Part shown: positions 5,801-57,500 of the stretch, piece by piece | Layout of the letters: every line of letters starts with the position of its first letter | Numbering within the stretch: the first letter of the stretch is position 1 | From: Apteryx mantelli | Taxonomy: Eukaryota > Chordata > Aves > Apterygiformes > Apterygidae | Assembly (NCBI RefSeq): GCF_036417845.1 | Contig: NC_089979.1 | Coordinates: forward strand, 51,064,275 to 51,128,274 | Reading direction: 5' to 3' | Length of the DNA stretch: 64,000 nucleotides | Program-made: the position numbers and the translations under genes | The notes under the pieces: model-generated | Databases searched by the model: none | Seen by the model: only the letters and a program-made list of their open reading frames with translations | Told to the model about the DNA's origin: nothing

Positions 5801-8800
5801 ATTATCATAACAGCTCCCTCATCCCCACTACCTTTTCCATTTGAAGGCCAACTCTGCAAGCTCAAATAGTATTGCTTTTTTATTAAGAATAATAAAAGGA
5901 AACGGAATGAAAGACTGAGCTTAGGTCAGCTCTTCTGTCCTGTCCATCAGTTTGTTTCAATCTTCATTCTCTGTATACTTACACCACATAGTGAGCATAG
6001 GAATTAAAATTTAATTCCCTTTTGAACTGTTCAAACTATTAATACAGTCTACGAACAGTACTCATTTTTATGATCGAAGAGTTGGAAGACTTAATTTATT
6101 ATATTCATGCAGCAGTCAATACTTCTCTCTTTCATGTCCAAGAAAGCAATCATCTATTGGGCTAAGAGCAGAGCAAGAATTAAATAAACTTGTACAAATT
6201 TATTTACACTGCTGTGATTTTAAAAATCTATTCAAGACTGCCAGAAGTCAAAGTTTAATTCCTATAACCTGCATAAGATGAAGAAGGCGTCCTCCTGCTG
6301 CTGTCTCCCCATCATCTTCACAATCCTGTAAGAAGGTCTGCTTATCTTCACAGTATATTCTTAAAAAAAAAAAAAAAAAAAGTGAAAATAGGATGTCAAA
6401 ATGAATTCAAATGAATTAAAAAATGTCAATCAATTAACATTTTCACATGATTACTGAAGTCTCAGAAATCTTTCATAAGCATGTGCTTCCCTACCAAGGG
6501 CATTTACATGAAAACAGGATGAGGCTTAGGGTAAACCACAAATATTTATCTGTACAGTATAACATGTGTTGAGACGCTTTTACAAATACTTTTGACTACC
6601 TCAAGTTAACTCCCAACTCATTATCAGTGTAAAGTCCCTATCAAGAAAAACCCTTAGGTTTTCAGCCTAAGCTTAGCTGAAACCAATTCTATCAGACACA
6701 ATTATGAATTATGGTGTAGGAATGGATTTGGAAGAACTCTGACAAAACTACTATTAATAATTAGTTAAGTCTAGATTTCAGGAGTAGTGTGAAACTATTA
6801 CTGAAATTCATCTTCAAATTCTCCATGACATCTACCGAGCCTTCTTCCAGAGCAAAGCTGTGACAGGTTATGGCACAGCTGAAGGTTTACACAGGGAGCA
6901 CTCCAGGAGCCTTTGGAGCCTGTTGTTTCAAATAAAGGAATACAGTCTAGGTCTAATTTTCCAAAAGTAATCCTCACAGAGGTCTACTGTTGTTACCCAA
7001 TTGATTTCATAACTTCCACATTTACACATGAAAATGACAGAGGCTTAATGTACCAGATGAAAACTATGAAGCAACAAGAATGTCTCTGCTACTTTTTAAA
7101 AGTATGTTTAGATAGTATGAGCGCAAGGAGTCAGATTAGCAGCAGCAGTGACAAAATAAATCCTCTCTTTATAGAAACCTTAATTTCAGTAGACTTGTTG
7201 GTGAAGTAAGCTTTCAGTTGCTCTAATTTTCATGTGTCACTAGCATCACTCTAAGATATGAGCAAATGGATTGGTTTCCATATGTGCTGTTTCAGCTCCT
7301 TTCACTGTTGGTTAGGTTCTTCAGAAAACCTACATCACTCTACCTGGACTGAGACCTATTCATTTCACATAAGCTATGTTTGCAAAAGCTGCCAGAGACG
7401 GACCACTGCAAAATTCTTTTTACCTTTTTCTCATTTTCCCTGAAGTTTCAAGTATTTCTGCAGAAATTTCATATGCCATATGTCTGCTTCAGGCTTTTGA
7501 TTTTAATTCTTATTTGAGCTAAAACTTTTCAGTCATTTCCAAATCAGGTCAGGAATAAAAAGTTATTTTGCCCAGATAAAAAAAATAGTAATAGCAGACA
7601 TTTATTTTGGGATGATGTAGCATTTCCATGCTCACACATCCTATAGAAAGTATAACAATATGTGTTCAAATCCACTTACAAGTCTTCCTCTTTATTCCTA
7701 ATGCTGTTTTACTACCTTAACATATTTTCTACTATACGTTTTACTTTCTTGATCTCAAATTCAAAATAAAGCCTAAAACCTTTAATATACAAGAAGCCCA
7801 TTCCTGTACAGATTTATTAGCAAAGAACTTCTTTAATGGATTTTACTTTTCTCCCATCCTGCATCCACTTGTCAAAGAACCCTGAAAAATCACTGTTCAG
7901 CTCTCACCTGTATGCATATATGTTGTGGGTAGCACTTGCAATTTTCTTATTCTCATATAATTTTTCAAGAACTCTCTTTACCTTTAAAGAAAAAAAAAAC
8001 AGAAATAAATTTGCTTTTACAATGGGGTTTTTGTACACACCATCTCAATCGGACTGCTAAACAAATGCCTGCTTTTTAATAACACAATGAAACAGCTTTA
8101 AACTTTGACATATTTAGCAATAAAATAAATTAAATATTCAACATATTAACTTAAGCAGCAGCTTCTTAGTACCCTAATGCTAGTTTCAAATTATTTTTCT
8201 GGGATATTGAAAACTGCTGTTCCTTGAATTAGTACATTGCATGCTTAATTCATGTTATTGCTGAATATGTAAAAGTGCCAAACTGTTTCATTAAACAAGA
8301 GAGACAGCAAGATCTAGAAAACATTTTCAAATCAATATTAAATATAAATTGCACCTAACTACTTATTTCAAATATAACATTAAGCTGGAATAATATGACA
8401 CAACTTGACATATGTGTTCATATTACATACTGCTTTTGCCGATGCCACAAAAACACGAGAGGTTTAAAAAGTTCTACTACGTCTCACTTTGAGACTTTCC
8501 TTTTTTCAAACTTACTTTCTCAGAGTTTCCATTTCACAGAAAGAATCAGAAAAATAGATTCTCTTTAAAGGTCAGTGTCAGCATTTCCCAGACAACAGAC
8601 GTTCCCACCACATTTCTCTCTCTGCTCTTAAGCAGTATGAAATTCAAAACATTTATCAATATTAGTTCATCTTCTGTTTCTAATTAAACAAGCTAGCAGT
8701 TGTTCAACCCTTATCAGCTTGGTCTAGCAAAGAGGAGAGCTTTGATCAAGACATTGTTTTAATAGATAATACATAATTGATATTACTTTGAGCAAAGCAT

Positions 8801-11800
8801 TACTGAAGTTGAGAAAGCTTGGGAAAACATGCCAGGCAAGCAAATTGCCTTCCATTCAAAAGAAAAATGTCCCTGAGGAGTAATCAATATACATATTTAA
8901 TATCTGTCTTAGCTATAGTGTGCCATTTCCAATTCTTCTGGAAGAAATTCAAGTAATAACTTATAAAAATTACCTCAAATGTAAGACACCTCAATGAAAA
9001 AACTCCTATTATTAACTGAGAACATTGCCTTGGACACTTATTTTCTTCTTTTTTTTTCCCCCAAAGGGGAATATTGAAGAAAGACAACTTATATTACTTA
9101 ATACGCACTCATAAATACATTTCAGTAGACTCATTTAGGGTACAAAGCCTATGAAATGATCACTACCTTTGACATTAGTCATTTGTCAGCTATGATGCTC
9201 CTAAAAACGTCTTAAAGATTCATTATGTCTGTATTAGCAATGAACCTCTGACACAGGCATCTTACTGCCAAGCAATAGCCTACCCTTCTTCCTGCTGTAG
9301 CTCTTGAGCCTTTCTTTCCCTGTTTCTTCCCTCTATTATTGTTCTTTTTCAGATTAGCTGAACAATAAAGTCTCCAAATTAATGGATGCAAATTCTCTAC
9401 ATGTTAGTCAGGCACCTGTTCATAAAAGACAAAAAAGATCCTTAACCAACAGATCAGCTCTTTGTACCATCTTACAAAATCAATGTCAAGTCCAAGAATG
9501 ATGTACATTTTAAGCATTAGAATGAGCCAAAAGGAGACAAGGAAAAGCAGTGGTACTAAACCCAGCTTGCTAGCTGAAATATATCTATCGCTTTCCTTTC
9601 CCGTATGTTTTATGGTAGCATACTCTATTACTATAAATATACTGTAAATAACTACAGTATTAGTCTGGCTATCATTGAAAACTACAGTAGAAGTAAAATT
9701 TTATTATAAAAAATATTCAATAATTTACACAGCAATCTATGTACTGTATGTACTGTATTAAAAATCTGTGAACATCACTACAATATACAGTGATGCAGAT
9801 AAAGTATTATGGACACACACTAACCTCTTCACAGTTGATCAAGAAGCTAGCTTTCATTATAGGTGCAACGTTTATCCCACTCTTCACCCCTCCTGGCTTT
9901 CTCTCAGGAAAATGAGACCATAACTCCATACCAAAGCAAAAGTGCCCTGCAGTCCAGAGACCAATCAAGTCTCACTGCACAGCAAGACTCAGTGAAACAA
10001 GATGGATTTGACCCTTGGGGAATTGCTCTACCTTTATACTCACCATATACCAAGAAGTCTTGACCTGGAATTCCTAGGTCTATTGAGTTATGCTGTCTTT
10101 AAAGGGAAGTCATAAAAGAAATTAAGAATGTCTTTGTATGCAAAAAGAAAATTACTAACCTGCTTTAAGTAAATACTCTTTCTTGACACAGACATGCCCT
10201 TTTGGAAACCCATGTCTGCTGGTATGGACTTCTTCTAGGTAGGAACTGCCTTACTCATAAATCATCATCAATGAGTGACAGTATTGCAGAATGAGAAAAG
10301 GAGATTAGGCCAATGATTCTGATCTCCTCTCTTTCTGAAGCAACACTGTTCACAGGAACTGAGCACAGCTAAGAAAACTTTTGAGGTTCAGTGCTACTTT
10401 AACGAAAACAATAATGGAGTGTTTTAAACCCCTGAATTATTCCACAATAAGCCTAAAAACATAATTACTTTCACTTTACAAACAGTAAAAGAACAGTTCA
10501 AGAAAACTGAAGCTGGGTTCACAAAGCTGAAGTTATATCCAAATACAGGCATACCTCGTTTTATTGCGCTTCACTTTATTGCACTTGGCAGATATTGCAT
10601 TTTTTACAAATTGAAGGTTTGTGGCAACCCTGCGTCGAGCAAGTCTGTCGGCGCCATTTTTCCAACAGCATGTGCTCACTTCATGTCTGTGTCACATTTT
10701 GGTAATTCTTGCAATATTTCAAGCTTTTTCATTATTATTATATCTGTTATGGTGATCTGTGATCAGTGATCTTTGATGTTACTATTGTAATCGTTTTGGG
10801 GCGCCACGAACCGCACCCATATAAAACAGCAAACTGAATCGATAAATGTGTGTGTTCCGACTGCTCCACTGACCGGCCGTTCCCCTATCTCTCTTCCTCT
10901 CCTCAGGCCTCCCTATTCCCCGAGGCACAACAATACTGAAATTAGGGCAATTAATAACCCTACAATGGCCTCTAAGTGTTCAAGTGAAAGGAAAAGTCGC
11001 ATGTCTCTCACTTTAAATCAAAAGCTAGAAATGATGAAGCTTAGTGAGGAAGGCATGTTGAAAGCCGAGATGGGCCAAAAGCTCGGCCTCTTGCACCAAG
11101 CAGTTAGCCAAGTTGTGAATGTAAAGGAAAAGTTCTTGAAGGAAATTCAAAGTGCTACTCCAGTGAACGCACAAACACTAAGAAAGCACAACAGCCTTAT
11201 TGCTGATAGGGAGAAAGTTCTAGTGGTCTGGATAGAAGATCAAACCAGCCACAACATTCCCTTAAGCCAAAGCCTCATCCAGAGCAAGGCCTGAACTCTC
11301 TTCGATTCTACGAAGGCTGAGAGAGGTGAGGAAGCTGCAGGAGAAAAGTTTGAAGCTAGTAGAGGTTGGTTCATGAGGTTTCAGGAAAGAAGCCGTCTCC
11401 ATAACATAGAAGTGCAAGGTGAAGCAGCAAGTGCTGATGCAGAAGCTGCAGCAAGTTATCCAGAAGATCTAGCTAAGAGAATTGATGAAGGTGGCTATGC
11501 TAAACAACAGATTTTCAGCGTAGACAAAACAGCCTTCTACTGGAAGAAGATGCCATCTAAGACTTTCATAGCTAGAGAGGAGAAGTCAATGCCTGGCTTC
11601 AAAGCTTCAAAGCTTCAAAGGACAGGCTGACTCTCTTGTTAGGGGCTAATGCAGCTGGGGACTTGAAGTTGAAGCCAATGCTTACTTACCACTCCCAAAA
11701 TCCTAGGGCCCTTAAGAATTATGCTAAATCTACTCTGCCTGTGCTTTATAAATGGAACAACAAAGCCTGGATGACAGCACATCTGTTTACAACATGGTTT

Positions 11801-14800
11801 ACTGAATATTTTAAGCCCACTGTTGAGACCTACTGTGCAGAAAAAAAGATGCCTTTCAAAATATTACTGCTCATTGACAATGCACCTGGTCACCCAAGAG
11901 CTCTGATGGAGATGTACAACAAGATTAATGTTGTTTTCATGCCTGCTAACACAACATCCATTCTGCAGCCCATGGATCAAGGGGTAATTTCAACTTTCAA
12001 GCCTGACTATTTAAGAAATCCATTTTGTAAGGCTATAGCTGCCATAGATAGTGATTCCTCTGATGGATCTGGGCAAAGTAAATTGAAAACCTTCTGGAAA
12101 GGATTCACCATTCTAGATGCCATTAAGAACATTTGTGATTCATGGGCGGAGGTCAAAATATCAACATTCACAGGAGTTTGTAAGAAGTTGATTCCAACCC
12201 TCATGGATGACTTGGAGGGGTTCAAGACTTCAGTGGAGGAAGTAAGTGCAGATGTGGTGGAAGCAGCAAGAGAACTAGAATGAGAAGTGGAGCCTGAAGA
12301 TGTGACTGAATTGCTGCAATCTCATGATAAAACTTGAATGGATGAGGAGTTGATTCTTATGGATGAGCAAAGTAAGTGGTTTCTTGAGATGGAATCTACT
12401 CCTGGAGAAGATGCTGTGAACATTGTTGAAATGACAACAAAGGATTTAGAATATTGCATAAACTTAGTTCATAAAGCAGCAGCAGGGTTTGAGAGAATCG
12501 ACTCCAATTTTGACAGAAGTCCTATTGTGGGTAAAATGCTATCACACAGCATCACACGCTACAGAGGAATCCTTTGTGAAAGGAAGTCAATTGATGCGGC
12601 AAACTTCATTGCTGTCTTATTTTAAGAAATTGCCACAGCCACCCCAACCTTCAGCAACCACCACCCTGATCAGTCAGCAGCCATCAACATCAAGGCAAGA
12701 CCCTCCATCAGCAAAAAGATTACGACTCGCTGAAGGCTCAGATGATGGTTAGCATTTTTTAGCAATAAAGTATTTTTTAATTAAGGTATGTACATCGTTT
12801 TTTAGACACAATGTTATTGCACACTTAATAGACTGTATCGTGTAAACGCAACTTTTATATGCACTGGGAAACCAAAAAATTCATGTGACTCACTTTATTG
12901 GAATATTCGCTTTATTGCGGTGGTCTGGAACCAAACCCGCAATATCTCTGAGGTATGCCTGTAAAGAAAAACATGACAAGAAGGTATAGATGGCAAGATG
13001 GACGTGAAAAGCATAGCGAGGCAAGCCAAATTTTTTGGACATGTAAAAATGAAAGTAATAATGATTTTTTTTTCAAACACATAAGAAACAGAAGCCTACC
13101 AGAAATCTGTATTGCCAACACATAAACTTAATATAAAAGAACCACTCAAAGATACAGCTGTAGCACAAAAACTAAATGGTTGTGTAGTGTTTGTGAACTT
13201 AAACAGTCAGCCAAGGATGATACAGTGGCAACTTATTGCAAAGCCAGGTTTTAGAACAAGCTGACAAAATGAATGGAAAAAATCAGCAGAATCAGATCGT
13301 ATTTTTATTTAAAAGGAATTTGAGTATGAAGCTATCAAACTGTGACTAAGGTATCTAACCTACCAGTTAAAATTGCTTCTACAGCAGAGCAGAGGAATGC
13401 AAGGTGACTAAGTGATGTAAAAGCAACTCCAAACTAGTTATTAGCACTCAGAAAGAGATCTTGGGGTTATAGAAGACATTTCTGTGAAAATAACAGATCA
13501 GTGCTCAGCAGAGGCCAAACAAGCAAACTGAAAGGTATTACTAGGAAAAGAACATGGAAAACAGCAAACTTTACATCACTCCAAGTCCTTGGTGTGATTG
13601 CATCTTGAATGTTGTGTAGAGTTCTGGACTGCATCTCAGAAAGAACATAGAAAATATAAGTAGAAGGGAAATAAAAAAAAATATGCGTACAGAATCACCT
13701 CCACATAAGAAGAATCAAAATAGACCATGGCTCTTAGGCCTGGAAAACAGAAAAGTAAAGTCTATAAAATATGACAGATGTCTATAAAATTCAACTATAT
13801 AGAAGAAGTAAGAGGTAATTAGTATTTACTGTTTGTCATGCTACAGAAACTAAGGGGACAACAAATGAAATTATGATGGACTGATCACAGTAAACACAGG
13901 AAGGTATATTTTCATATGATGTTGTGGATTCCAAAAGTTAATTCTAGTTCAAAAAAGCAAGACAATTTCCCTAAACAACAAAAAAAAAAAGAAAAATCAG
14001 AAGTATTAAACACAAGGATACCTTCTTTGCCTTGGGTTAAATGGCTGAAAGATGGGATGTATGATGGGAAACAAAATATGGCCAGCCTACCTGGGTATAC
14101 AGCCACTACTTGTCCATATCAGAGACAGCTGCACTGATTGATGTGAACTAGTATGATACTCCTACTGACTGTAGACAAATACAACTGTATAACCATGCTT
14201 ACCCCTCTCACTTATTTCTAGATGAAGATTTGCTTATGCATTTTAACCAGTTTTATTTTTCTATAGAATTTCTTTCTGGAGAAAACATTTATAAAATCAT
14301 TTTAATTCATTTTCCAAGCAGCATATGGCAGACTCAGTAGCTTCCAAATATCATATGACAAACTATCAGCATCCAAAAGGCAAATATCAGTGTTCTTATT
14401 CTCTCTCTTACATCTATGGCACTTAAGAGAAAGAAATAGCAATACCAACCCACTTCAACAATAAAACTGGAAAACTACTGGGAAGCATTGCAGAGTAATT
14501 ATTTAGCTGATAATGAAAGCAGATAGCTGATGAGTACTCGCACAATGTTAGCACACAAAGATATAAAAAAAGAAAGAAATATGCAGCTAATTCCAAGTAT
14601 TTCAGTAGTGTTTTGTCAAAGCATAGACAAAAAACCTGTAAGAGTCTGTCCCTCAATCTCTACTAACTTGTTGAAGTGTCACCACAGGAGCCAGATGTGC
14701 CTGGAAGGTACTCCTTCGGTCTGTGATTGGGTTTCCATGATGTATTGATGGCAGTTCTTCATCTACAGAACACAAACAAGGAAATGTTTCTTTCTTTTTA

Positions 14801-17800
14801 GGATACTGAAACAATATATATGGCTACATAAGTAAAGAATGTCTTAACTTTAAAAAAGGGACTAGTTAAAGTTAAGTATACAAGCTCACATATAGAACCA
14901 CCAAAAATATGTAGTTTTTCTGTAACAGTTATTAATCTTTATTGTAATTTTTAATGTTATTAATTTGCATTACTCAAAAGCTAAGTAAAAACAGAAACTT
15001 AAGGCCTGTCTTTTCTAAACTATCTAATCAGAATTAACAAGGAAATATTCTTACCTTCTTGGCTTTCAGATGTAATAAAATTCAACATTTTAACTGAATC
15101 TTCCTGAACTGGCTGATAGTCCAGGAGAAAATCATCTTCATTATCTTCATCAACTTCTTCACTGGTTTTCTTATTATCTGGTTCTGCTAACATGTATGTA
15201 GTAGAATTTATTAGACATTTTTTGGAAGATAATTAATACAGCATTTCCAGTTGTTTTTCCTCAAATTATAAAATGTAGAATAATAATATTAATTACTGCA
15301 AAATCAGAAATGTTCAGTCCAGCATTAGCTAAAATCTTGCCTGGAATTAGGAACAGAACACTCATGGTATGGGATCCATGTGCAATCAATTACATAATAC
15401 CTTCCGCTTTAATACTAATTAACACTATTTCTAAGACAAAAAGAACATCAATGTTTACATTTTCCATTAAATGTTTCCAATGCTACTGTTAATCTAATCT
15501 GAATTTAGAGAACAAAATAGTCTCAGTTCAGAGAGGTTCAGTCATTTGTTGGTCATTTCTGGAAAAATGTAAAGCTATGGTTCAATGCTACTTAATGAGG
15601 TTATAAAATCATTAAATTTGAAACATCTCTCTGGACATTTTTCAACTGCTCTGGGAGTCCTGCAGTCGTATTTTTCTTCATGCAAAGGACATATGGAAAA
15701 TAACAGTCAATAGCAAAAGCATAAATATCATACACTTCCATTACTCAGGCAACTGGATTTAGAGGGAGTCTACCACACAGACAAGTTAGTATATAACAAT
15801 CTAGTTATTTATTTAGAGGGCCTATGACGCGGTGATGATGCAGTTTTTGTAACACAGGTGTTTTCCAATAAAAAAGAAGAGGTGCAATACAGCATGCTAA
15901 AAAGGTCTAGAAAAATTATTAGTTGAAGTAGAAGCCATAGGGTCCAAATACCCAACAAACTTCCAATATTGTCACTAAAATTTTCACTTTTTCACAGAAT
16001 CACAGAATCACAGAATCACTGAGGTTGGAAGGGACCTCTGGAGATCATCTAGTCCAACCCCCCTGCTCAAGCAGGGTCACCTAGAGCACATTGCACAGGA
16101 TCGCATCCAGGCGCATTTTGAATATCTCCAGAGAAGGAGACTCCACCACCTCTCGGGGCAACCTGTTCCAGTGCTCTGTCACCCTCACAGTGAAAAAGTT
16201 TTTCCTCATGTTCAGATGGAAGTGTCTGTGTTTCAGTTTGTGCCCATTGCCTCGCGTCCTGTCGCTCGGCACCACTGAAAAGAGTCTGGCCCCATCCTCT
16301 CGACACCCTCCCTTCAGATACTTATACACATTGATAAGATCTCCTCTCAGCCTTCTCTTCTCCAAGCTAAACAGGCCAAGCTCTCTCAGCCTTTCCTCAT
16401 AAGAGAGATGCTCCAGTCCCCTAATCATCTTTGTGGCCCTTCGCTGCACTTGCTCCAGTAGTGCCACATCCCTCTTGTACTGGGGAGCCCAGAACTGGAC
16501 GCAGTACTCCAGATGTGGCCTCACCAGGGCTGAGTAGAGGGGGAGAATCACCTCCCTCGACCTGCTGGCAACACTCTTTCTGATGCAGCCCAGGATACCA
16601 TTGGCCTTCTTGGCCACAAGGGCACATTGCTGCCTCATACTTAACTTGGTGTCCACCAGCACTCCCAGGTCCTTCTCAGCAGAGCTGCTTTCCAGCAGGT
16701 CAACCCCCAACCTGTACTGCTGCATGGGGTTATTCCTCCCCAGGTGCAGGACCCTGCACTTCCCTTTGTTGAATTTCATGAGGTTCCTCTCTGCCCACCT
16801 CTCCAGCCTGTCCAAGTCTCTCTGAATGGCAGCACAGCCCTCTGGCGTATCGGCCACTCCTCCCAGTTTTGTATCATCAGCAAACTTGCTGAGTGTGCAC
16901 TCTGTGCCTTCATCCAGGTCATTGATGAAGAAGTTGAACAAGACTGGACCCAGTACTGACCCCTGGGGGACACCGCTAGCTACAGGCCTCCAACTAGACT
17001 CTGTACCACTGATCACAACTCTCTGAGCTCTGCCATTCAGCCAGTTCTCAATCCACCTCACTGTCCACTCATCTAACCCACACTTCCTGAGCTTGTCTAT
17101 GAGGATGCTATGGGAGACAGTGTCAAAAGCCTTGCTGAAGTCTAGGTAGACAACATCCACTGCTCTCCCCTCATCTACCCAGCCAGTCATCCCATCATAG
17201 AAGGCTATCAGATTGGTTAAGCAGGATTTCCCCTTGGTGAAGCCATGCTGACTATTCCTGATCACCTTCTTTTCCTCCACATGCGTGGAGATGGCTTCCA
17301 GGATGAGCTGCTCCATCACCTTTCCAGGGATGGAGGTGAGGCTGACTGGCCTGTAGTTCCCTGGGTCCTCCTTCTTGCCCTTTTTGAAGACTGGGGTGAC
17401 ATTGGCTTTCTTCCAGTCCTCGGGCACCTCTCCTGTTCTCCATGACCTTTCAAAGATGATGGAGAGTGGCTTAGCAATAACATCCGCCAGCTCCCTCAGC
17501 ACTCGTGGGTGCATCCCATCAGGGCCCATGGATTTGTGGGTGTCAAGTTTGCTTAAATGATCTCTAACCCACTCCTCCTCCACCAAGGGAAAGTCTTCCT
17601 CTCTCCAGACTTTCTCTCTTGCCTCCAGGGTCTGGGGCTCCTGAGGGCTGGCCTGAGCAGTAAAGACTGAAGCAAAGAAGGCATTCAGTAACTCTGCCTT
17701 CTCTGCATCCTTCGTCACCAGGGCACCCACCCCATTCAGCAAAGGGCCCACGTTTTCCCTAGTCTTCCTCTTGCTGCTGATGTATTTGAAGAAGCCCTTC

Positions 17801-20800
17801 TTGTTGTCCTTGACATCTCTAGCCAGATTTAATTCCAAACGGGCCTTAGCCTTCCTCGTCGCATCCCTGCATACTCTGACAACATTCCTGTATTCATCCC
17901 AAGTGGCCTGTCCCCCTTTCCACTTTCTGTAGACTTCCTTCTTCTGGTTGAGTTTTGCCAGGAGCTCCTTGCTCATCCATGCAGGTCTCCTGCCTCCTTT
18001 GCTTGACTTCTTGCTCATAGGGATGCACCGCTCTTGAGCCTGGAGGAAGTGATGTTTGAATATTAACCAACTCTCTTGAACACTCCTTCCTTCCAGGGCC
18101 CTCACCCATGGGATTCCTCCAAGTAGGTCCCTGAAGAGGACAAAGTTTGCTCTCCTGAAGTCCAGGGTTGCGATCCTACTTGGTGCCCTGCTGCCTCCTC
18201 GCAGGATCCTGAACTCCACCATCTCATGGTCACTGCAGCCAAGGCAGCCCCCAACCTTCACATCTTCCACCAGTCCTTCTTTGTTTGTTAGTACGAGGTC
18301 CAGCAGCACACCTCTCCTTGTTGGCTCCTCCACCACCTGGGTCAAGAAGTTGTCACCAATGCTCTGCAGGAATCTCCAGGACTGTTTGTGCCTAGCTGTG
18401 TTGTCTTTCCAGCAGATATCAGGGTGGTTGAAGTCCCCCATGAGAACCAGGGCCTGGGATTGTGAGGCTACTTCCAGCTGTCTGTAGAAGGCCTCATCCA
18501 CTTCCTCTTCCTGATCAGGTGGCCTGTAGTAAACACCCACAACAGTGTCACCTCTATTAGCCTGCCCTTTGATCCTTACCCATAAGCTCTCGACTCGCTC
18601 TTCATCCACCCCTAGGCACAGCTCAATACATTCCAGTTGCTCTCTCACATAAAGAGCAACTCCACCACCTCGCTTTCCTGGCCTGTCTTTCCTAAAAAGT
18701 ACGTAGCCATCCATGACAGCACTCCAGTCATGCGAGCTATCCCACCATGTCTCTGTAATGGCAATGAGATCATGGCCCTGCGACCGCACACACATCTCTA
18801 GTTCTTCCTGTTTGTTCCCCAAGCTGCGTGCATTGGTGTACAGGCATTTCAGGGAGGTGATCGAGCATGCAGGTTTCCCAGGAGGGATACAAGAGGGTCC
18901 TCCATAGCCACATCCCATGCGCACTTCCCTGGCTGCATTCACCTGTTGGAGGCATCCTGACTTGAGCAGTCTTTTGCCAACTACCCTGTCACTATAACTC
19001 TCCCCTTCCCCCATCTTTCCTAGTTTAAAGCCCTCCTTACCAGGTTGGCCAACCTGTTGGCAAAGACCCGCGTGCCCCGCCTCGTGAGGTGGATCCCATC
19101 TCTCGCCATCAGTTGTTGATCTTCAAACAGGGTCCCATGGTCGTAGAAACCAAAACCCTGTTGCCAACACCAGCGGCGCAGCCAGTCGTTAACCTGGAAA
19201 GTCCGTCTCCTCCTCCTCTCATCCATCCCCCTCACTGGCAGGATTGAGGAGAAGATGACCTGGGCTCCCAGACCCTTGACCACCATCCCCAGAGCTCTGA
19301 AATCCTGCTTGATGGTCTGCAGTTTGCCCTTGGTGTCATTGGCACCCACATGGAAGAGCAGCAGTGGGTAATAGTCCGAAGAATGGATGAGCCTTGGCAG
19401 TCTTTGCATGACATCTCTCACACGAGCCCCCGGCAGGCCGCAAACCTCTCTAGACAAGAGGTCAGGTCGGCAGATAGATGCCTCCGTCCCCTGTAGCAGG
19501 GAGTCCCCCACAACAATCACCCGCCGCTTTTTCCGGGTGTTCCGGCAGGGCACAGGGTCTGTTGTCCCGGTTACTTCCCTGGCAGCCATGCCCATCTCCT
19601 CCTCATCCTGGAGGGCACTAAACCTGTTCTTCAGCTTCAGGTCTTCGGGAGGAGTAGGAGCCTTTCTCCTCCCACGAGCAGTGACCAGTTTCCAGCCTTC
19701 TTCTATGATGTTATGATGTACCATTTCACACGGCACAGAGCCCTCTGGCAACTCCACTGCTGCAGGGGGTTGGGACTCCCGAAGCTGCACAGTCTCCGAG
19801 AATACCCTGTCTATCTCTTGCTCTGCTTCTCGGATGCTGCGCAGCCTACTGACCTCCTCCCGTAACTCCCTTACCTGACGACACAACTCGTCAACAGCAG
19901 CACACCTCCTGCAGGAGAGCTGGCTGCCAGCCCAGGCCTCCCGGAGAGGCCCCAAGCACTCCCTGCAGCCTGAGACCTGTAGAGCTGCATCTACTGTCAG
20001 AGGGCCAGTCTGGGTCCAAGCCTCTGACACAGCAACTCCAGCAGCCGCTGGGGAACGTGCTGTGCGGCGTGTCACGACCATATTGGGGAAGTGTACACCG
20101 CAGGGAACAGAAATGAAGGTCCCTTCGCACGTCCCTTCGCACGCCCTTCTGCGCGAACTGCTGCGCAAACTGCTGCGTCTGTTCGCTGCCTCTGTTCGCT
20201 GCGCTCTGGGAGCTGCGCTCTAGGCCTGGCTCTTATATAGGCCTCTCCCTAGCACTGACTCACAGGGTGCTTGACCGCCCAATCAAGGGCCACTGGGATC
20301 AAAGGCCCCAACCCCCTCTGGTCAGGGGCAACCCAGAGAGCTCGTTAGCAGCAGCCACTCCTAGCTGGAGCTTTTCCCACGAGCTTTTCCCAGGAGAAGT
20401 CAAGGCCTCCTGCAGTTGTCCTTGCCTAGCTTCCCCTTTCCTGTTCACAGCGATCACCTTCTAGGTCCTCGGGGGTCCTCAGAAAGCCCACAACTTCCAC
20501 AAGATCCTCAAGTTCTAGTCAGAGCCCAACCACTGCTGCGCAAACTGCTGCGTCTGTTCGCTGCCTCTGTTAGCTGCGCTCTGGGAGCTGCGCTCTAGGC
20601 CTGGCTCTTATATAGGCCTCTCCCTAGCACTGCCTAAGAGGGTGCTTGACCGCCCTAATCAAGGGCCACTGGGATCAAAGGCCCCAACTCTCTTTGGTTA
20701 GGAGCACCAAGAGAGCTCGTTAGCAGCAGCCACTCCTAGCTAGAGCTTTTCCCACGAGCTTTTCCCAGGAGAAGTCAAGGCCTCCTGCAGTTATCCTTGC

Positions 20801-45500: not shown

Positions 45501-48500
45501 ACTTGTGGTGACTTGAAGAGAAGTAACATATACCTCAAGAGCTTGAAGTAACTGCTCAGCTGATATCAGAAGCACAAACATTCAGAGCAGGTGCAGAGCA
45601 AAGGCCTCTGGCACTTTATTGAATAAAAACTTCTTATCTCGACAAATTTCTGATTTTTTTCATAACTGAATTCCTTGGCAGCAGCACTGTCTTGTCATCT
45701 CTGTAATTAATGCCTGTCTTGGGCTAATTGTATGAATTCAGCACAACTTTGGCCCCTTTTGCGTTCTTTGAAAGAACTTTTCATTTGTCATTTTGAGGCT
45801 GGGAAGGCTCAAATCAGGACCAGTGTTCAAGCCTTCTTACAAACAGCTTGCATACTTTGGAACTTTCAGAGGGGTGGTGTCAGTTTAGCAGAGACCTTGG
45901 CATATATACAACCCCCTGTTTTACTCCTTGGCTAAGAAGCATGGCAGGAAAGATGCAGCAATACATGTGATCCCTAAAAATGACTTGTTCATATACCTAG
46001 TAAACTAAAGGAGTGGCTTCAGTCAGTCAAAGTTCACTAGAAAGTGTGTATCATAATCAGTTTTAAAAAAAAAAAAAGAGAGAGATTTGTGATGCCTGTT
46101 TTGGTATTGAGTGGTATGATGTTCAATGGAAACTTAAAGTTGAGCTTACATCATTTAGATCTTAGTGTTACTTACTGGTCAAAATGCAAGGATTTCTGCT
46201 CTGCTAGACTGATACGGATGATCTCCATTGGTGTGCTATTCAGTATAGTCCCGGAGTTAGTGGTCCACGTGGTATGTATCTTCTGTGGTACTTCGGCCCA
46301 TCAGTCACATAGGGCAGGAACTCTGTAGGCAAGACTGGGATGAGAGGAAGGTATTGAATCTGGGGTTGGAACAAGAGAAGGAGTTGAAGAAAGAGAACCA
46401 AATAACAAAACAAATAGCCATTAGTAGGCAGAAATGTTAGCTGGAAACAATTACAAGGAATGAGGAAGTATTTCAGCTGTGAACCCTATTCTAATGTTAA
46501 TTTTTAAAATGAAAGTAAAAAGAGAATGATGAACTTGTAAGACCAGTAGTTCTCTTTATCACTTGTGCTGATGGCTTGTCTCCTCAGGACAAACTCTTAT
46601 GGTGTGCATGTTTCCAAATTCAATGCTTGAGGAGAAAACTTGATGGTGACTGTAACTTAATACATTTTAATGCCTCATGTCCCCTTTGGTTTCATAGCTT
46701 TTGGGTAGCACTCAGAATGCTGTGGGCTTGTTGCATAGTAAGCACAAAGCTTGAATCAGCTTTGTTTGATACAGTGGAGTGTTGCAGCAAGGGAAAGCTA
46801 ACATGAACTGCCAGCTTAGTAGTAATCTCCAATGGTTTTATATCCTGCTTTTAAAAGAAGTGATTGTAGGACAATTCTTGAATTTCAGTCATAGAGCCAG
46901 TCCTCTAGGAAATGCTTTAAAAGCTCGTTAAAGCATAACTGTTGTTATCCTTTAGATTGCCACTTCTGTGCCTGCTTTCTTCTACATTTGTCTTGTCTCA
47001 AAGTTTTTAAAATCATGAAACTTTCTTAGTAAGGCTTTCTGTATTTAAAAAATGAATCCAAGCACAAGGCTACAAAACCCCCCGAACTTTGGTTCATACC
47101 AACTGTTTTATTCCGAATCTCTGTTCTGAAGATGCTTTGTCCTAGCTCTCATTTGCATGCAAGAAATAAAACCAGGTAAGCCAAACTTTTTTGATTCACT
47201 TAAGAGAAATATGTGTATTTGCACTCTGCGTGCACTTTGCACACTGAATGAAAGTAACTGAAGCTTGTTGTTAGTGTCAAAGCACAAGATATTACATGAA
47301 TACAAAAGTTTTAACTGCCATCAAACAGCATGGCTTTCTTCTTCCAGAAAGATTTCGTAGATTCGAATCTGTAATTTGCTCAGACTATGGCCTGATCTAG
47401 TGATTCAGATTAAATGAATTGTAATGATGCTTCCTGGCCTCTGTGCTCCAAAAAGCAAAAGCCAAAAAATACACCAAACCCTCTCTATGTTACTATGGAG
47501 AATGATCATCCATGCCACCCCTCAAGCACATGACTCTTGTTGTATTATGTTACCAAAACTTAATTTGCCTGATTCTGTTTTGTATCTTCTAGGCAGAAGT
47601 AAATCTAATTTGGGTTGGACACCTCTTCACCTTGCATGCTACTTTGGACATGCTGTTGTGGTAGAGGATTTGCTGAAGGTATCTCTCTACTTGCCTCTCT
47701 GTATAAGGCAGAAGATTCTTCTGCTAGAATCACTTAGTATTTACTCAGTTTTTTGTGATGGAAGAAAGGCTTATTTGTAGAGACAGAGCCACTCTTACAG
47801 TTTATCTGTGTGTAACACAGATAACTAAGCTGACTGTTAAAACTAGGGAGTGGAATAGCTGTGATATTAAGAAGGTCATTCGCAGTTACAAGGACTCATG
47901 ATAAGGACACTGGAAGTTGCTGAGATGTTGCAGTAGTATACTGCTGTCACTTTGAACAGTGTTTACAGCTACCAGTAGCGAGCTAACTTTCTCATGAAGC
48001 ATGTGTGTGTTTGTCTATGTAACCATCTGAATGTCGGAATGAAAAACATTTTACAGTATATAGCTGTGCACTTGTGAAAGCTTCAGTCCTTTTCATGCTC
48101 AGTGGATATCTGCATATAATAAGCCAGCAACAGGTAGTAGTAATGCAAATACTTCAAGAGTCTGGTCTAGTTTACTGTAGTACTTATAAGTATATAATTC
48201 AGACAGTTTCACTGATTTTGTTATAGGAAAGGCTAAAGTGTTTCACATGCAAAAAAATCCGGGCTAGTTGTATGGTACAGTTGTACAAAGAAGTATGTGC
48301 AGAATTCTGGGCTAAGTAACCTGTGTTTATTTTTTTTCCCAGGGACAGACTAACATGGTTTGACTCATTGTTTCTTTCTGACTTCTTAGAAATGTTGAAC
48401 TCTTAACCTCTGTGGTCAAAGCTGACCCATTTGTATCTTCATAACAACCACTGCAGTACATTTTGAGTTATCTCTGGCTGAGGTCTTTTCTTACCCCCAG

Positions 48501-51500: not shown

Positions 51501-54500
51501 AGTGGCTTTATGCCAACAAGATTGTTAAAGAGCAAAATCCTGAACACTTTATAAAGGTGACCCAGTGTTGGATCAAGTTTAGGACTTGCTGTTGCAGTCT
51601 TAGAGAGTATTTAAAAAAAAAAAAATCCTTCACATCACTTCCTCTGCCATCTTGCAGGTGGTAAAAGTGAGGGAGATGGTGCCCCGACTACTTACACAGA
51701 ACTGACTGGTTTTAAGGTTGGAGAGTTCAAGAGCTCTGTTGCCTCCTGGTATTATTAATAATGCACTGCCCCTAAATACTGCTGAAGTGTCATGTCCAAT
51801 ACAGAGACTATATGCAGAAGTTGATCTCTCTTCCAGTTCTACATGCAAGTGCACAGAAGTCCTTTCTAGACACTGATCTGCTGAATTGTTAGAGAAAAAA
51901 CAGAATTTCTGTGGGATGGTAGAAAGAATAGATGAGAAAAGCTGAGAAGAGTGCAGAGGAGATCTGATGGGGTGGGAAAGAAAGCATATATTTTACCTGG
52001 TTTCCCTTTTTCTTAGGGGGTAGGGTTGGGGGTGGTAGTATAAAATACATACTCAAAACTTTTCGAATATTACTTGTTTTTGAACATCAAATTTTGTCTC
52101 TGACACTGACTTTTCTGGAAAAATACTCTGCTTAGATGGTATCAGTACATGTCCCAGATAAATGATACTATTCTCTAGGCTTATTTTGGTACAGTTTCTT
52201 AAGTGTGCTGCTTCAGACATAAGTGTGACTTTACTGATATGACTGTTAAAATCTTTCTTTAAAAGCAGTGGAAAGGACACAAGAAAGGAAACTGGAAGAA
52301 GAGCTCTTAGGAGCAGCAAGAGAGGGAGAAACTGGGAAACTGACTGCCTTGGTAAGAATTCAAGTGCTTGTGCTACCTTTATGTCCAACACTTAAAGCCA
52401 TAAAACTAATATCACAGCATGTTCTTAGGGCTTGCATTTCAGAGTGCTGTGAATTCATAATAAGGTGCACAGCACTACTGTTCTATTGGTAAGATGAAGA
52501 AACTTCAAGTGTTTACCAATATCCTTGTTATCTAGTAAAAGCAATGGTTTTCTGCCTCTTTCAGGTTAGTTTAGAAAACTAAACTCTTCAGTTAGTTGCA
52601 AGTTCCAGTATAATTAAGTTAGATATATTGACATAAGTTTATTAAGTTTTTGTAGATGCATTAAATGTCATAAGTGTTTAAGCTTTCACCCCAGTATGGA
52701 CTATTTTCAATCTTGAAAATAAACCTGTGTCACTAGCATCCATTGCAGCTGAAGTAACTGTAGTTTGTAACAGTCATTTGCACAGCATAATTCCACACTG
52801 AACAAGACTTAAACTGTACATGCACACACACTCTCTCATATTAATTCAAACTGAATGATACCATTGTATAGTAAGGCTGTAAGAGAAGCAGGGTCTGAAT
52901 GCTTGAACTGAAGATTTTGAGAACCCTGAAGAGTTTCTTTGGAAGTAAGAGGGCAATACAGGACTTTTTCCACAAGGTTAGCACCTTTAATATTACCTTT
53001 TAAGACACCAAAACAGTCTGAAATCTTTTATTTCTAATGGAAAATTCTCAAATGTGAGATTTGTATGTTTAGAATTCTGGCATTCCCTACTTCTTTGCTT
53101 CGAAGCCACAGTTCTGTTTCTGTTATCTGCTCCTCCATGAAGTTTGTCCCTTCTGGGCTGAAGAGCCCTTGTCTGTCTAACTACTTCTTGCACGGAAATG
53201 TTTCTTAAATCTTTAGTCATCTTTGTTATTCTTATCTTTACTTTGGTACTATCCTCTCTTGAAATAGAGAGAGAGAACCAGTACTGCACAGAGTAGCTAA
53301 GATGTGGAAGAATTATGCATTAATGCATTGGCATAATTGTAATAATTGTAACTAATGCACTGGTATAACTGATCTGTTTCTGATTCTGGTAATTCTTACC
53401 CCATTGCATTTGACGTTGCATGCCTGTGGACTAAGCCTTAAACTGATCTGAAAAAGGTAACTCCTAATATTCATAAATTTATCATTAAAGAACTTGGTGC
53501 TTTCTCTCATGTGATATGTAACCATGTAGGCACATGTATCTCTTCCTGTAAGCTGTTTTCATTTGTAATTGATTTTTTTTTATGTTAGTATCATTGAGCT
53601 GTGTGTATGTGAGCACAGCTATATGTTGACCTCTAAAACTTTTTAAAGTACTTACACTTTTTCACAGAATCACAGAATCGCTGAGGTTGGAAGGGACCTC
53701 TGGAGATCATCTAGTCCAACCCCCCTGCTCAAGCAGGGTCACCTAGAGCACATTGCACAGGATTGCATCCAGGCGGGTTTTGAATATCTCCAGAGAAGGA
53801 GACTCCACAACCTCTCTGGGCAACCTGTTCCAGTGCTCTGTCACCCTCACAGTGAAAAAGTTTTTCCTCATGTTCAGATGGAAGTGTCTGTGTTTCAGTT
53901 TGTGCCCGTTGCCTCGCATCCTGTCGCTGGGCACCACTGAAAAGAGTCTGGCTCCATCCTCTCGACACCCTCCCTTCAGATACTTGTACACATTGATAAG
54001 ATCTCCTCTCAGCCTTCTCTTCTCCAAGCTAAACAGGCCCAGCTCTCTGTCTTTCCTCATAAGAGAGATGCTCCAGTCCCCTAATCATCTTTGTAGCCCT
54101 TCGCTGGACTTGCTCCAGTAGTGCCACATCCCTCTTGTCCTGGGGAGCCCAGAACTGGACGCAGTACTCCAGGTGTGGCCTCAGCAGGGCTGAGGAGAGG
54201 GGGAGAATCACCTCCCTCGACCTGCTGGCAACACTCTTCCTGATGCACCCCAGGATACCATTGGCCTTCTTGGCCACAAGGGCACATTGCTGCCTCATGT
54301 TTAACCTGGTGTCCACCAGCACTCCCAGGTCCTTCTCAGCAGAGCTGCTTTCCAGCAGGTCAACCCCCAACCTGTCCTGGTGCAGGGGGTTATTCCTCCC
54401 CAGGTGCAGGACCCTGCACTTGCCTTTGTTGAACTTCATGAGGTTCCTCTCCGCCCACCTCTCCAGCCTGGCCAGGTCTCTCTGAATGGCAGCACAGCCC

Positions 54501-57500
54501 TCTGGCATATCAGCCACTCCTCCCAGTTTTGTATCATCGGCAAACTTGCTGAGGGTGCACTCTGTCCCTTCATCCAGGTCACTGATGAAGAAGTTGAACA
54601 AGACTGGACCCAGGACTGACCCCTGGGGGACACCGCTAGCTACAGGCCTCCAACTAGACTCTGCGCCACTGATCACAACTCTGAGCTCTGCCATTCAGCC
54701 AGTTCTCAATCCACCTCACTGTCCACTCATCTAACCCACACTTCCTGAGCTTGTCTATGAGGATGTTATGGGAGACAGTGTCAAAAGCCTTGCTGAAGTC
54801 AAGGTAGACAACATCCACTGCTCTCCCCTCATCTACCCAGCCAGTCATTCCATCAGAGAAGGCTATCAGATTGGTTAAGCAGGATTTCCCCTTGGTGAAG
54901 CCATGCTGACTACTCCTGATCACCTTCTTTTCCTCCCCATGCTTGGAGATGGCCTCCAGGATGAGCTGCTCCATCACCTTTCCAGGGATGGAGGTGAGGC
55001 TGACTGGCCTGTAGTTCCCTGGGTCCTCCTTCTTGCCCTTTTTGAAGACTGGGGTGACATTGGCTTTCTTCCAGTCCTCGGGCACCTCTCCTGTTCTCCA
55101 TGACCTTTCAAAGATGATGGAGAGTGGCTTAGCAATGACATCCACCAGCTCCCTCAGCACTCGTGGGTGCATCCCATCAGGGCCCATGGATTTGTGGGTG
55201 TCAAGTTTGCTTAAATGATCTCTAACCTGATCCTCCTCAACCAAGGGAAAGTCTTCCTTTCTCCAGACTTTCTCTCTTGCCTCCAGGGTCTGGGATTCCT
55301 GAGGGCTGGCCTGAGCAGTAAAGACTGAAGCAAAGAAGGCATTCAGTAACTCTGCCTTCTCTGCATCCTTCGTCACCAGGGCACCCACCCCATTCAGCAA
55401 TGGGCCCACATTTTCCCTAGTCTTCCTCTTGCTCCCGATGTTTTTGCAGAAGCCCTTCTTGTTGTCCTTGACATCCCTTGCCAGATTTAATTCCAAATGG
55501 GCCTTAGCCTTCCTCATCGCATCCCTGCATACTCTGACAACGATCCTATATTCCTCCCAAGTGGCCTGTCCCCCTTTCCACTTTCTGTATACTTCCTTCT
55601 TCTGGTTGAGTTTTGCCAGGAGCTCCTTGCTCATCCATGCAGGTCTCCTGCCTCCTTTGCTTGACTTCCTACTCATAGGGATGCACCGCTCTTGAGCCTG
55701 GAGGAAGTGATGTTTGAATATTAACCAGCTCTCTTGAACACCCTTTCCTTCTAGGGCCATAACCCATGGGATTCCTCCAAGCAGGTCCCTGAAGAGGCCA
55801 AAGTTTGCTCTCCTGAAGTCCAGGGTTGCGATCCTACTTAGTGCCCTGCCTCCTCCTCGCAGGATCCTGAACTCTACCATCTCATGGTCACTGCAGCCAA
55901 GGCTGCCCCCGACCTTCACATCTTCCACCAGTCCTTCTTTGTTTGTTAGTACGAGGTCCAGCAGCACACCTCTCCTTGTTGGCTCCTCCACCACCTGTGT
56001 CAAGAAGTTGTCACCAATACTCTGCAGGACCTTCCGGGACTGTTTGTGCCTAGCTGTGTTGTCTTTCCAGCAGATATCAGGGTGGTTGAAGTCCCCCATG
56101 AGAACCAGGGCCTGGGATCGTGAGGCTACTTCCAGCTGTCTGTAGAAGGCCTCATCGACTTCCTCTTCCTGATCAGGTGGCCTGTAGTAAACACCCACAA
56201 CAGTGTCACCCATGCTAGCCTGCCCTTTAATCCTTACCCATAAGCTCTCAACTCCCTCTTCATCCACCCCTAGGCACAGCTCAATACATTCCAGTTGCTC
56301 TCCCACATAAAGAGCAACTCCACCACCTCGCTTTCCTGGCCTGTCTTTCCTAAAAAGCATGTAGCCATCCATGACAGCACTCCAGTCATGCGAGCTATCC
56401 CACCATGTCTCTGTAATGGCAATGAGATCATGGCCCTGCGACCGCACACAGATCTCTAGTTCTTCCTGTTTGTTCCCCATGCTGCGTGCATTGGTGTACA
56501 GGCATTTCAGAGAGGTGATCGAGCATGCAGGTTTCCCAGGAGGGATGCAAGAGGATCCTCCATAGCCACATCCCATGCGCACTTCCCTGGCTGCCTTCAC
56601 CTGCTGGAGGCATCCCGACTTGAGCCGTCTTTTGCCAACTACCCTGGCACTATAACTCTCCCCTTCCCCTGTCTTTCCTAGTTTAAAGCCCTCCTTACCA
56701 GGCTGGCCAGCCTGTTGGCAAAGACACGCGTGCCCCACTTAGTGAGGTGGATCCCATCTCTCTCCAGCAGCTGTCGATCTTCAAACAGGGTCCCATGGTC
56801 GCAGAAACCAAAACCCTGTTGCCAACACCAGCGGTGCAGCCAGTCGTTAACTTGGAAAGTCCGTCTCCTCCTCCTCTCATCCATCCCCCTCACTGGCAGG
56901 ATTGAGGAGAAGATGACCTGGGCTCCCAGGCCCTTGACCACCATCCCCAGAGCTCTGAAATCCTGCTTGATGGTCTCCAGTTTGCCCTTGGTGTCATTAG
57001 CGCCCACCTGGAAGAGCAGCAGTGGGTAATAGTCTGACAAGTGGACAAGCCTTGGCAGTCTTTCTATGATGTCTCTCATGCGAGCCCCTGGCAGGCCACA
57101 AACCTCCCTAGACATGAGGTCAGGTCGGCAGATAGATGCCTCCATCCCCTGCAGCAGGGAGTCCCCCACAACAATCACCCGCCGCTTCTTCCGGGCGTTC
57201 CGGCAGGGCACAGGGTCTGTTGTCCCAGGTACTTCCCTTGCAGCCATGCCCATCTCCTCCTCATCCTGGAGGGCGCTAAACCTGTTCTTCAGCTTCAGGT
57301 CTTCGGGAGGAGTAGGAGCCTTTCTCCTCCCACGAGCAGTGACCAGTTTCCAGCCTTCTTCTACGGTGTTATGATGTACCATTTCACATGGCACAGAGCC
57401 CTCCAGCAGCTCCACTGCTGCGGGGGGTTGGGACTCCTGAAGCTGTACAGTCTCCGAAAATACCCTGTCTATCTCTTGCTCCGCTTCCCGGATGCTGCGC

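Follow-up and report, generated by a model that had tools for sequence, protein, structure and literature searches.

Mammalian Tigger1, a pogo transposon and the source of the human TIGD1 sequences, is the closest described relative of the element reported here. The two have the same length, ends, TA target and pairing of CENP-B_N and DDE_1 domains, while our element differs in having a bird host; its 1.8-kb and 335-bp deletion derivatives are a candidate further difference. Horizontal transfers of Tigger elements have been described that concern the same transposon family and, as here, eutherian partners; those set out in the sections of PMC9219625 that we draw on involve arthropods, fishes, crocodilians, turtles and marsupials, and none involves a bird. 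The same source tables Tigger-family elements for crocodilians (6), turtles (24) and 1 bird species (one entry of 3808 bp, for which an intact copy was not detected), so that the original prediction, which regarded Tigger1 as mainly placental, was only roughly right; the Tigger1 status of these entries is not stated in the text covered. A spotted-owl table gives 528 TcMar-Tigger elements, among whose tabled entries Tigger1 is not named. More broadly, a survey of 307 vertebrate genomes found transfers involving birds and mammals to be rare, with 24 detected versus a minimum of 975 overall (PMC7070016, in part), and our search of openly licensed papers returned no title or abstract opening reporting a transfer of Tigger1 into birds.

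The behaviour of the bird copies after insertion is best compared with ectopic gene conversion among human LTRs (PMC4921805, in part), where conversion likewise occurs among dispersed repeats and is commoner when they are linked. Maximum tracts in the human LTRs average 99 bp, whereas two pairs of the bird DNA transposon are free of mismatches over ∼1.9–2.3 kb; the GC bias seen in the bird Tigger1 copies is a further difference from that system.

Structure and setting of the element

In the window, by which we mean the whole 64,000-nucleotide stretch of Apteryx mantelli DNA that was analysed, the element occupies 2416 bp of the plus strand (10546..12961), as delimited by the sequence, its repeat arms, the genome copies and their consensus. 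TA dinucleotides flank it on the left (10544..10545) and right (12962..12963), and the perfect cores of its terminal inverted repeats (10546..10557, plus strand; 12950..12961, minus strand) form, together with the TA, outer repeats of 14 bp that are 100% complementary (TACAGGCATACCTC at 10544-10557 and GAGGTATGCCTGTA at 12950-12963). The TA-flanked inverted repeats and 2.4-kb length of the original prediction were thus exact in their coordinates.

The transposase reading frame (10965..12752, plus strand), which runs to 593 codons in the copy consensus, is broken in this copy, as seen from the sequence, its open reading frames and comparison with the consensus and other copies. When the four pieces of the frame were scanned against Pfam, two had no match and the others yielded, above cut-off, the CENP-B_N DNA-binding domain (PF04218, E 3.7e-16; 10989..11147, plus strand) and the DDE_1 catalytic domain (PF03184, E 5.7e-49; 11636..12172, plus strand), bearing out the Tigger-type transposase first read from the letters. 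A hand count on the consensus protein separates the D of LLID from that of QPMD by 32 residues, a DD32D spacing that is shared with TIGD1 (PMC7325037, in part) and falls within the DD29-36D of the Tigger family (PMC7386202, in part); no PDB relative of the catalytic piece was found at E 0.001. The TA target, short terminal inverted repeats and CENP-B type N-terminal domain joined to DDE_1 are those of the Tigger family and pogo superfamily. We read the element as a full-length but dead Tigger1, a transposon of that superfamily that moves by cut and paste.

Relative to the copy consensus, the plus-strand frame carries in-frame TGA triplets at codons 110 (11292..11294), 437 (12281..12283) and 455 (12335..12337), a frameshifting 8-bp gain in a GCTTCAAA tandem (11596..11620) and a 2-bp loss near 12584, with four small losses outside the frame. 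At codon 455, T (giving TTA) is present in 50 of 67 bird copies and G in 15 of 67; the window copy's G agrees with the mammalian consensus, which we take to have TGA there, and the TTA of the 50 copies sets the bird element apart from it.

The element is antisense to IMPACT and inside one of its introns: tblastn with an IMPACT protein query placed the exon upstream of the intron at 14665..14760 and the downstream exon at 7907..7984, both on the minus strand, and these bracket the element as had been claimed. CR1-type LINEs also occur near the element in the window, where Rfam (gathering scores) and ARAGORN gave no match. The host's nature was examined with the alpha-globin of this genome, compared with the PDB: among the 60 of 70 matches listed, six fused two-domain chains of 283–285 residues come first, and 12 of the 15 best single chains after them bear the name alpha-A, ranking above 3at5 and the other single chains listed; the alpha-A entries are from birds and 3at5 is from a turtle.

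Copies in the bird genome

Among 914 first-look candidates in the bird's own 1.5-Gb genome, we scored 40 Tigger1 copies, including the window copy, at dispersed places on contigs of 4–223 Mb; 30 of the 40 align from base 1 or 2 through to 2415 or 2416. An exact left-end pattern matched 41 times, versus 0 for the same pattern read backwards, which together with the 40 scored copies excludes chance. The TA is kept on both sides in 26 of 39 fetched copies (left 32/39, right 33/39), and a comparison of flanks between copies detected none common to different loci. The element is therefore a genuine multi-copy resident of its host genome, as horizontal transfer requires. A 17-base probe led to 20 loci within which blastn gave no match longer than 26 bases. 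Short peptide patterns turned up no relatives in IMG/VR or GTDB genomes, and neither did blastn against phages, plasmids and E. coli genomes.

The consensus of the 40 copies is 2419 bp long with an open frame of 593 aa, from which copies differ by 4.1% (K2P, non-CpG) in one divergence peak near 4%; only two of 76 fetched loci retain a frame free of stops. Thirty-seven loci sampled by pattern comprised 15 full copies, 10 of a 1.8-kb class, five of a 335-bp class, five others and two with 49 bp only, the 1.8-kb and 335-bp classes being internally deleted derivatives, and mean divergence was 4.1–4.4% in each of the full, 1.8-kb, 335-bp and other classes. The first sample was ordered by how closely copies resemble the window copy and the second picked by intact left ends, so that the mean age given by these values may be too low.

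Identity to mammalian Tigger1 and a probable origin by horizontal transfer

As reference we used a working version of the mammalian Tigger1 consensus rather than a database record. Against it the window copy is 94.9% identical and the bird copy consensus 99.2% (19 mismatches in 2418 positions and one gap, an element difference of 0.8%), the latter identity covering the noncoding ends as well; the closeness to mammals originally predicted, against which an identity below 70% was to count, is upheld by a wide margin on this working reference. As a control on the reference, of the 117 sites at which the window copy departs from the bird consensus, the working sequence sides with that consensus at 111. 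Its base is also carried by 10 or more of the 40 bird copies at 11 of the 20 positions where it differs from the bird consensus.

An identity of 99.2% is not attainable by vertical descent over ∼300 million years, which leaves horizontal transfer as by far the best explanation: taking the working consensus for the mammalian side, we hold it highly probable that an active, nearly mammal-identical Tigger1 entered the ancestor of this bird horizontally. The identity and the dispersed copies likewise support the earlier reading of a transfer into the bird lineage or into both groups.

Instead of a transfer from mammal to bird, a third party, such as a parasite, arthropod or reptile, may have passed the element separately to birds and mammals, and we regard this as a serious possibility that falls a little short of an even chance. 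It would suit founders that are near-identical yet seem to differ in their burst dates, and Tigger transfers of eutherians with arthropods, turtles and crocodilians have been reported (PMC9219625, in part). Weighing the other way, no hosts of Tigger1 other than eutherians are known to us.

Survival of Tigger1 in both lineages from the common ancestor of birds and mammals is very improbable. As such descent would have it, turtles, crocodilians, squamates and one bird have tabled elements of the Tigger family (PMC9219625, in part) and TIGD1 sequences are widespread across tetrapods (PMC7325037, in part), but all TIGD1s are multi-copy, unlike stationary domesticated genes (PMC7386202, in part), the bird copies form a single divergence peak, and the noncoding identity that the two consensus sequences display would not have survived ∼300 million years of neutral evolution. 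Contamination of the assembly by mammalian DNA, which the mammalian look of the element by itself (against the working consensus) might suggest, is scarcely credible, as had been foreseen, given the scored copies on long contigs, the failure to detect flanks common to loci, the IMPACT exons on either side of the window copy, the CR1-type LINEs nearby and, as a weak control, 0 exact genome matches to a working Tigger2/MER28 end pattern.

Probable gene conversion between neighbouring copies

Copies that lie close together resemble each other far more than distant ones. The mean difference is 1.7% for seven pairs less than 0.32 Mb apart and 4.8% for six pairs up to 1.2 Mb, rising farther apart to 8.7% (48 pairs) and 9.2% (241 pairs), with 9.1% on different chromosomes (2098 pairs). 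Identity thus drops with physical distance while the flanks are unrelated, as expected of gene conversion. The remaining differences also collect at the ends: in four directly realigned pairs (L035/L036, L032/L034, L060/L062 and L050/L094), 69 of 92 mismatches fall in the terminal 200+200 bp, versus 19% in random pairs. All 17 mismatches of L032/L034 are at positions 12-109, followed by 2310 bp without any, and 22 of the 32 in L050/L094 are at 13-74, followed by 1886 bp without any; L060/L062 is less clear (13 of 28 terminal). In L052/L067, realignment traced differences at 300-500, which might have marked a tract edge, to misalignment next to a gap; they are not counted as such an edge, and with this block set aside the pair lacks end clustering. 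Finally, the 14 near-pair copies have more A/T-to-G/C changes than the 54 others (0.0556 versus 0.0454, p 0.003) and fewer G/C-to-A/T changes (0.0200 versus 0.0277, p 0.002), p values to be read with the non-independence of pair members in mind. Copies within ∼0.3 Mb therefore appear to fit a pattern of long-range GC-biased gene conversion.

The A/T-to-G/C changes themselves could stem from a pure mutation hotspot. Context affects which sites are hot (31 of 284 after T against 2 of 310 after G). The hot sites are also more frequent in coding sequence (56/1037 versus 5/373) and are unlinked: a linkage test, whose outcome counts against conversion, found no excess below 30 bp among the 61 high-frequency G/C sites (r2 0.0194 versus 0.0159±0.0027), with a weak excess only beyond 30 bp. 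Flank GC was not correlated with these sites.

Local hopping or segmental duplication is an unlikely source of the neighbour identity. Tc1/mariner relatives hop locally, the identical pair L029/L030 fits hopping or duplication as readily as conversion, and L052/L067 is without end clustering. Against this, the 100-bp flanks of nine realigned pairs, and longer flanks where compared, have no similarity, on which ground segmental duplication was rejected (many flanks being only 100 bp), and a recent hop would give even divergence, not the end-confined differences of L032/L034 and L050/L094. Assembly error was also considered unlikely: among the best 40 of 5119 candidates, 39 further CR1 copies are 99–100% identical to the query over 1.5 kb.

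A proposed history

Taking these results together with what is established for the family, an active Tigger1, from a mammal or an origin shared with mammals, would have entered the germline of a bird ancestor. The CENP-B-like domain of its transposase would bind the terminal repeats, the DD32D domain would cut, and the element would insert at TA, spreading widely together with the 1.8-kb and 335-bp derivatives before decaying. Afterwards, copies within roughly 1 Mb would overwrite one another by GC-biased gene conversion, a step that we infer from the distance decay, the end-confined differences and the base-change bias.

Avian substitution rates are 1.2–2.2e-9 per site per year, at which 4% non-CpG divergence would make the bird burst roughly 18–34 million years old. 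The mammalian Tigger1 burst dates to about 60–90 million years ago. The timing looks awkward, the bird burst seeming younger than the mammalian one at ordinary avian rates although the founders are nearly identical, and this combination calls for an avian clock that runs slowly, a mammalian donor that survived later or a third host.

Tentatively, and with somewhat less than an even chance of being right, we suggest that a single inter-class wave brought practically one molecule (∼99% identical along its full length, noncoding parts included) into both mammals and the bird lineage, and that concerted evolution of the bird copies followed, by GC-biased gene conversion reaching ∼1 Mb between dispersed copies, with A/T-to-G/C hot sites changed as often as CpG sites. 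A near-identical element in many copies would allow the timing and direction of the transfer to be tested with a tree and empty sites, and its dispersed 2.4-kb repeats would let non-allelic gene conversion in a bird be measured directly for range, tract length and base bias.

The Tigger1-type copy and its surroundings

The element at 10546-12961 is bounded at both ends by a perfect 14-bp inverted repeat with the TA target included, in agreement with the TA-flanked repeats of the original prediction. Its broken frame (10965-12752) encodes CENP-B_N and DDE_1 domains and, relative to a consensus built from Tigger1 copies of the same genome (the bird consensus), carries three in-frame stops, one 8-bp gain and five small losses. 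An IMPACT protein query gave exon matches on the minus strand from 27028 down to 2675, and those at 14760-14665 and 7984-7907 flank the element, bearing out the proposed location within an IMPACT intron, where it lies antisense to the gene. An ankyrin-repeat exon at 47424-47780 presumably belongs to OSBPL1A, the gene adjoining IMPACT.

Two CR1-type LINEs also lie in the window, the first (16081-20168) with GDSL ORF1 and RT/endonuclease ORF2 both open, the second (53743-57760) with ORF2 broken and 96-97% similar to the first. A 1.5-kb piece of the first had 39 further scored copies at 99-100% identity (best of 5119 candidates), so CR1 has been recently active in this genome. Among the PDB matches listed for the alpha-globin of this genome, fused chains aside, the closest form a group of 15 single chains, 12 of which carry the name alpha-A; these are bird proteins. 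Like the original prediction, we take the host to be a bird.

Tigger1-type copies across the genome

Searching the genome at the DNA level with the window copy gave 914 candidates, of which the best 40 were scored. The 39 other copies are 89-92% identical to the window copy, and in 30 of the 40 the alignment spans both ends. The element ends gave 758 (5' 300 bp) and 873 (3' 322 bp) candidates, so the genome likely carries hundreds of copies, although each search scored 40 of its candidates. The exact left-end pattern occurs 41 times and its backward control never. From 39 copies of the scored list and 37 loci with the left-end pattern, we find the whole frame still open in 2 of 76 loci; the bird consensus, at 2419 bp, has an open frame of 593 aa. 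Non-CpG K2P distance to the consensus averages 4.1% (range 2.7-6.9%, 40 copies), and in the noncoding ends only it is 4.0% (54 copies).

The 37 pattern loci comprise 15 full-length elements, ten 1.8-kb derivatives lacking about 1084-1716 (L082-L084, L087, L090, L095, L096, L101, L102 and L109), five 335-bp derivatives joining roughly 158 bp of one end to 177 bp of the other (L080, L081, L093, L103 and also L085; common breakpoints at about 158/2243), five with other deletions and two with a 49-bp match only. The 335-bp derivative and the full-length copies have diverged to a similar degree, and mean divergence is equal across the first four classes, as for one burst. In the last two loci (L079 and L106), Tigger1's first 49 bp, near locus position 303, run into unrelated sequence, and none of three right-end motifs turned up in the remainder of the 2.5-kb stretch searched.

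Comparison with mammalian Tigger1

For comparison, a provisional, non-database version of the mammalian Tigger1 consensus was used, set down with only the ends of the bird consensus translation, and none of its bases, in view. Aligned with this version, the bird consensus shows 19 mismatches in 2418 bases and a single gap; the window copy shows 124 mismatches in 2408. The provisional mammalian base occurs in 10 or more of 40 bird copies at 11 of the 20 positions that separate the two consensus sequences, so that fixed differences are fewer still. Had the provisional sequence been modelled on the window copy, it would carry that copy's private changes; its agreement with the window copy at only 6 of 117 such sites, against 111 with the bird consensus, argues otherwise. 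The evidence for near identity to mammalian Tigger1 is strong but not database-grade. The DD32D catalytic spacing counted on the bird consensus protein is the same as that given for TIGD1 in a passage of PMC7325037.

Identity of neighbouring copies

Mean divergence was computed for pairs of copies with 900 or more comparable bases; such pairs share members and are not independent. It was 1.7% for the 7 pairs less than 0.32 Mb apart, 4.8% for the 6 from there to 1.2 Mb, 8.7% for the 48 at 1.2-10 Mb, 9.2% for the 241 farther apart on the same chromosome and 9.1% for the 2098 between chromosomes. L029/L030, L032/L034, L035/L036, L060/L062, L050/L094 and L052/L067 lie 13-308 kb apart and differ by 0-2.8%. 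Such near pairs occur in both orientations, and no flank similarity was found between paired loci.

Nine pairs were realigned directly. L029/L030 is identical over 2416 bp, L032/L034 has its 17 mismatches all between positions 12 and 109 and is mismatch-free over the next 2310 bp, and L050/L094 has 22 of 32 at 13-74 (some perhaps through misalignment), then 1886 bp without any. Within the terminal 200 + 200 bp lie 11 of 15 mismatches in L035/L036 and 13 of 28 in L060/L062, and 69 of 92 when the last four pairs are pooled, against 19% in random pairs. L052/L067 has 53 mismatches and none is terminal: 51 belong to a block misaligned next to a gap, and the other two lie elsewhere; on the original alignment, all five pairs including this one gave 77 of 157. 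Tract edges are thus clear in two of the five, weaker in two and absent in one. Neighbour identity probably reflects gene conversion over long range; local hopping, an unlikely rival, gains slightly because L052/L067 gives no tract-edge evidence.

Base bias

Non-CpG changes found in at least 8 of 74 copies are mostly A/T to G/C (72 of 77; three others are G/C to A/T and two C to G), polarity being taken from the provisional mammalian consensus where its base is common and otherwise from the majority base. A/T-to-G/C changes are commoner, and G/C-to-A/T changes rarer, in 14 near-pair copies than in 54 others. At 61 non-CpG A/T sites, selected for having G or C in 15% or more of the copies, an average of 32% of 55 full copies are changed, a figure shaped by that selection, compared with 20-38% of CpG positions per copy; examples are consensus positions 736, 770, 939, 997, 1178, 1621 and 1907. 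These hot sites depend on sequence context, with enrichment after T (TA), and occur more often in the coding part, and no short-range linkage was found among them. All of this speaks against conversion in its simple form; mutational hotspots, or independent events of short-patch repair, may play a part.

Origin and age

Contamination, which the original prediction judged unlikely, is rejected since the copies occupy unrelated places on contigs of 4-223 Mb. Vertical descent since the bird-mammal split is very unlikely, as neutral noncoding DNA could not have kept 99% identity over that time. Horizontal transfer remains much the likeliest explanation for Tigger1 in this bird, and the transfer originally proposed gains support from the 99% identity to the provisional mammalian consensus. 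At typical avian rates the burst would date to about 18-34 million years ago. The mammalian Tigger1 burst was earlier, and a later burst in the bird is in tension with near-identical founders.

Searches of the openly licensed literature turned up no account of avian Tigger1. Horizontal transfer of Tigger elements is already known (PMC9219625), and we regard Tigger1 in this bird as a probable addition to those transfers, with the unusual signs of gene conversion among its copies as a further finding.
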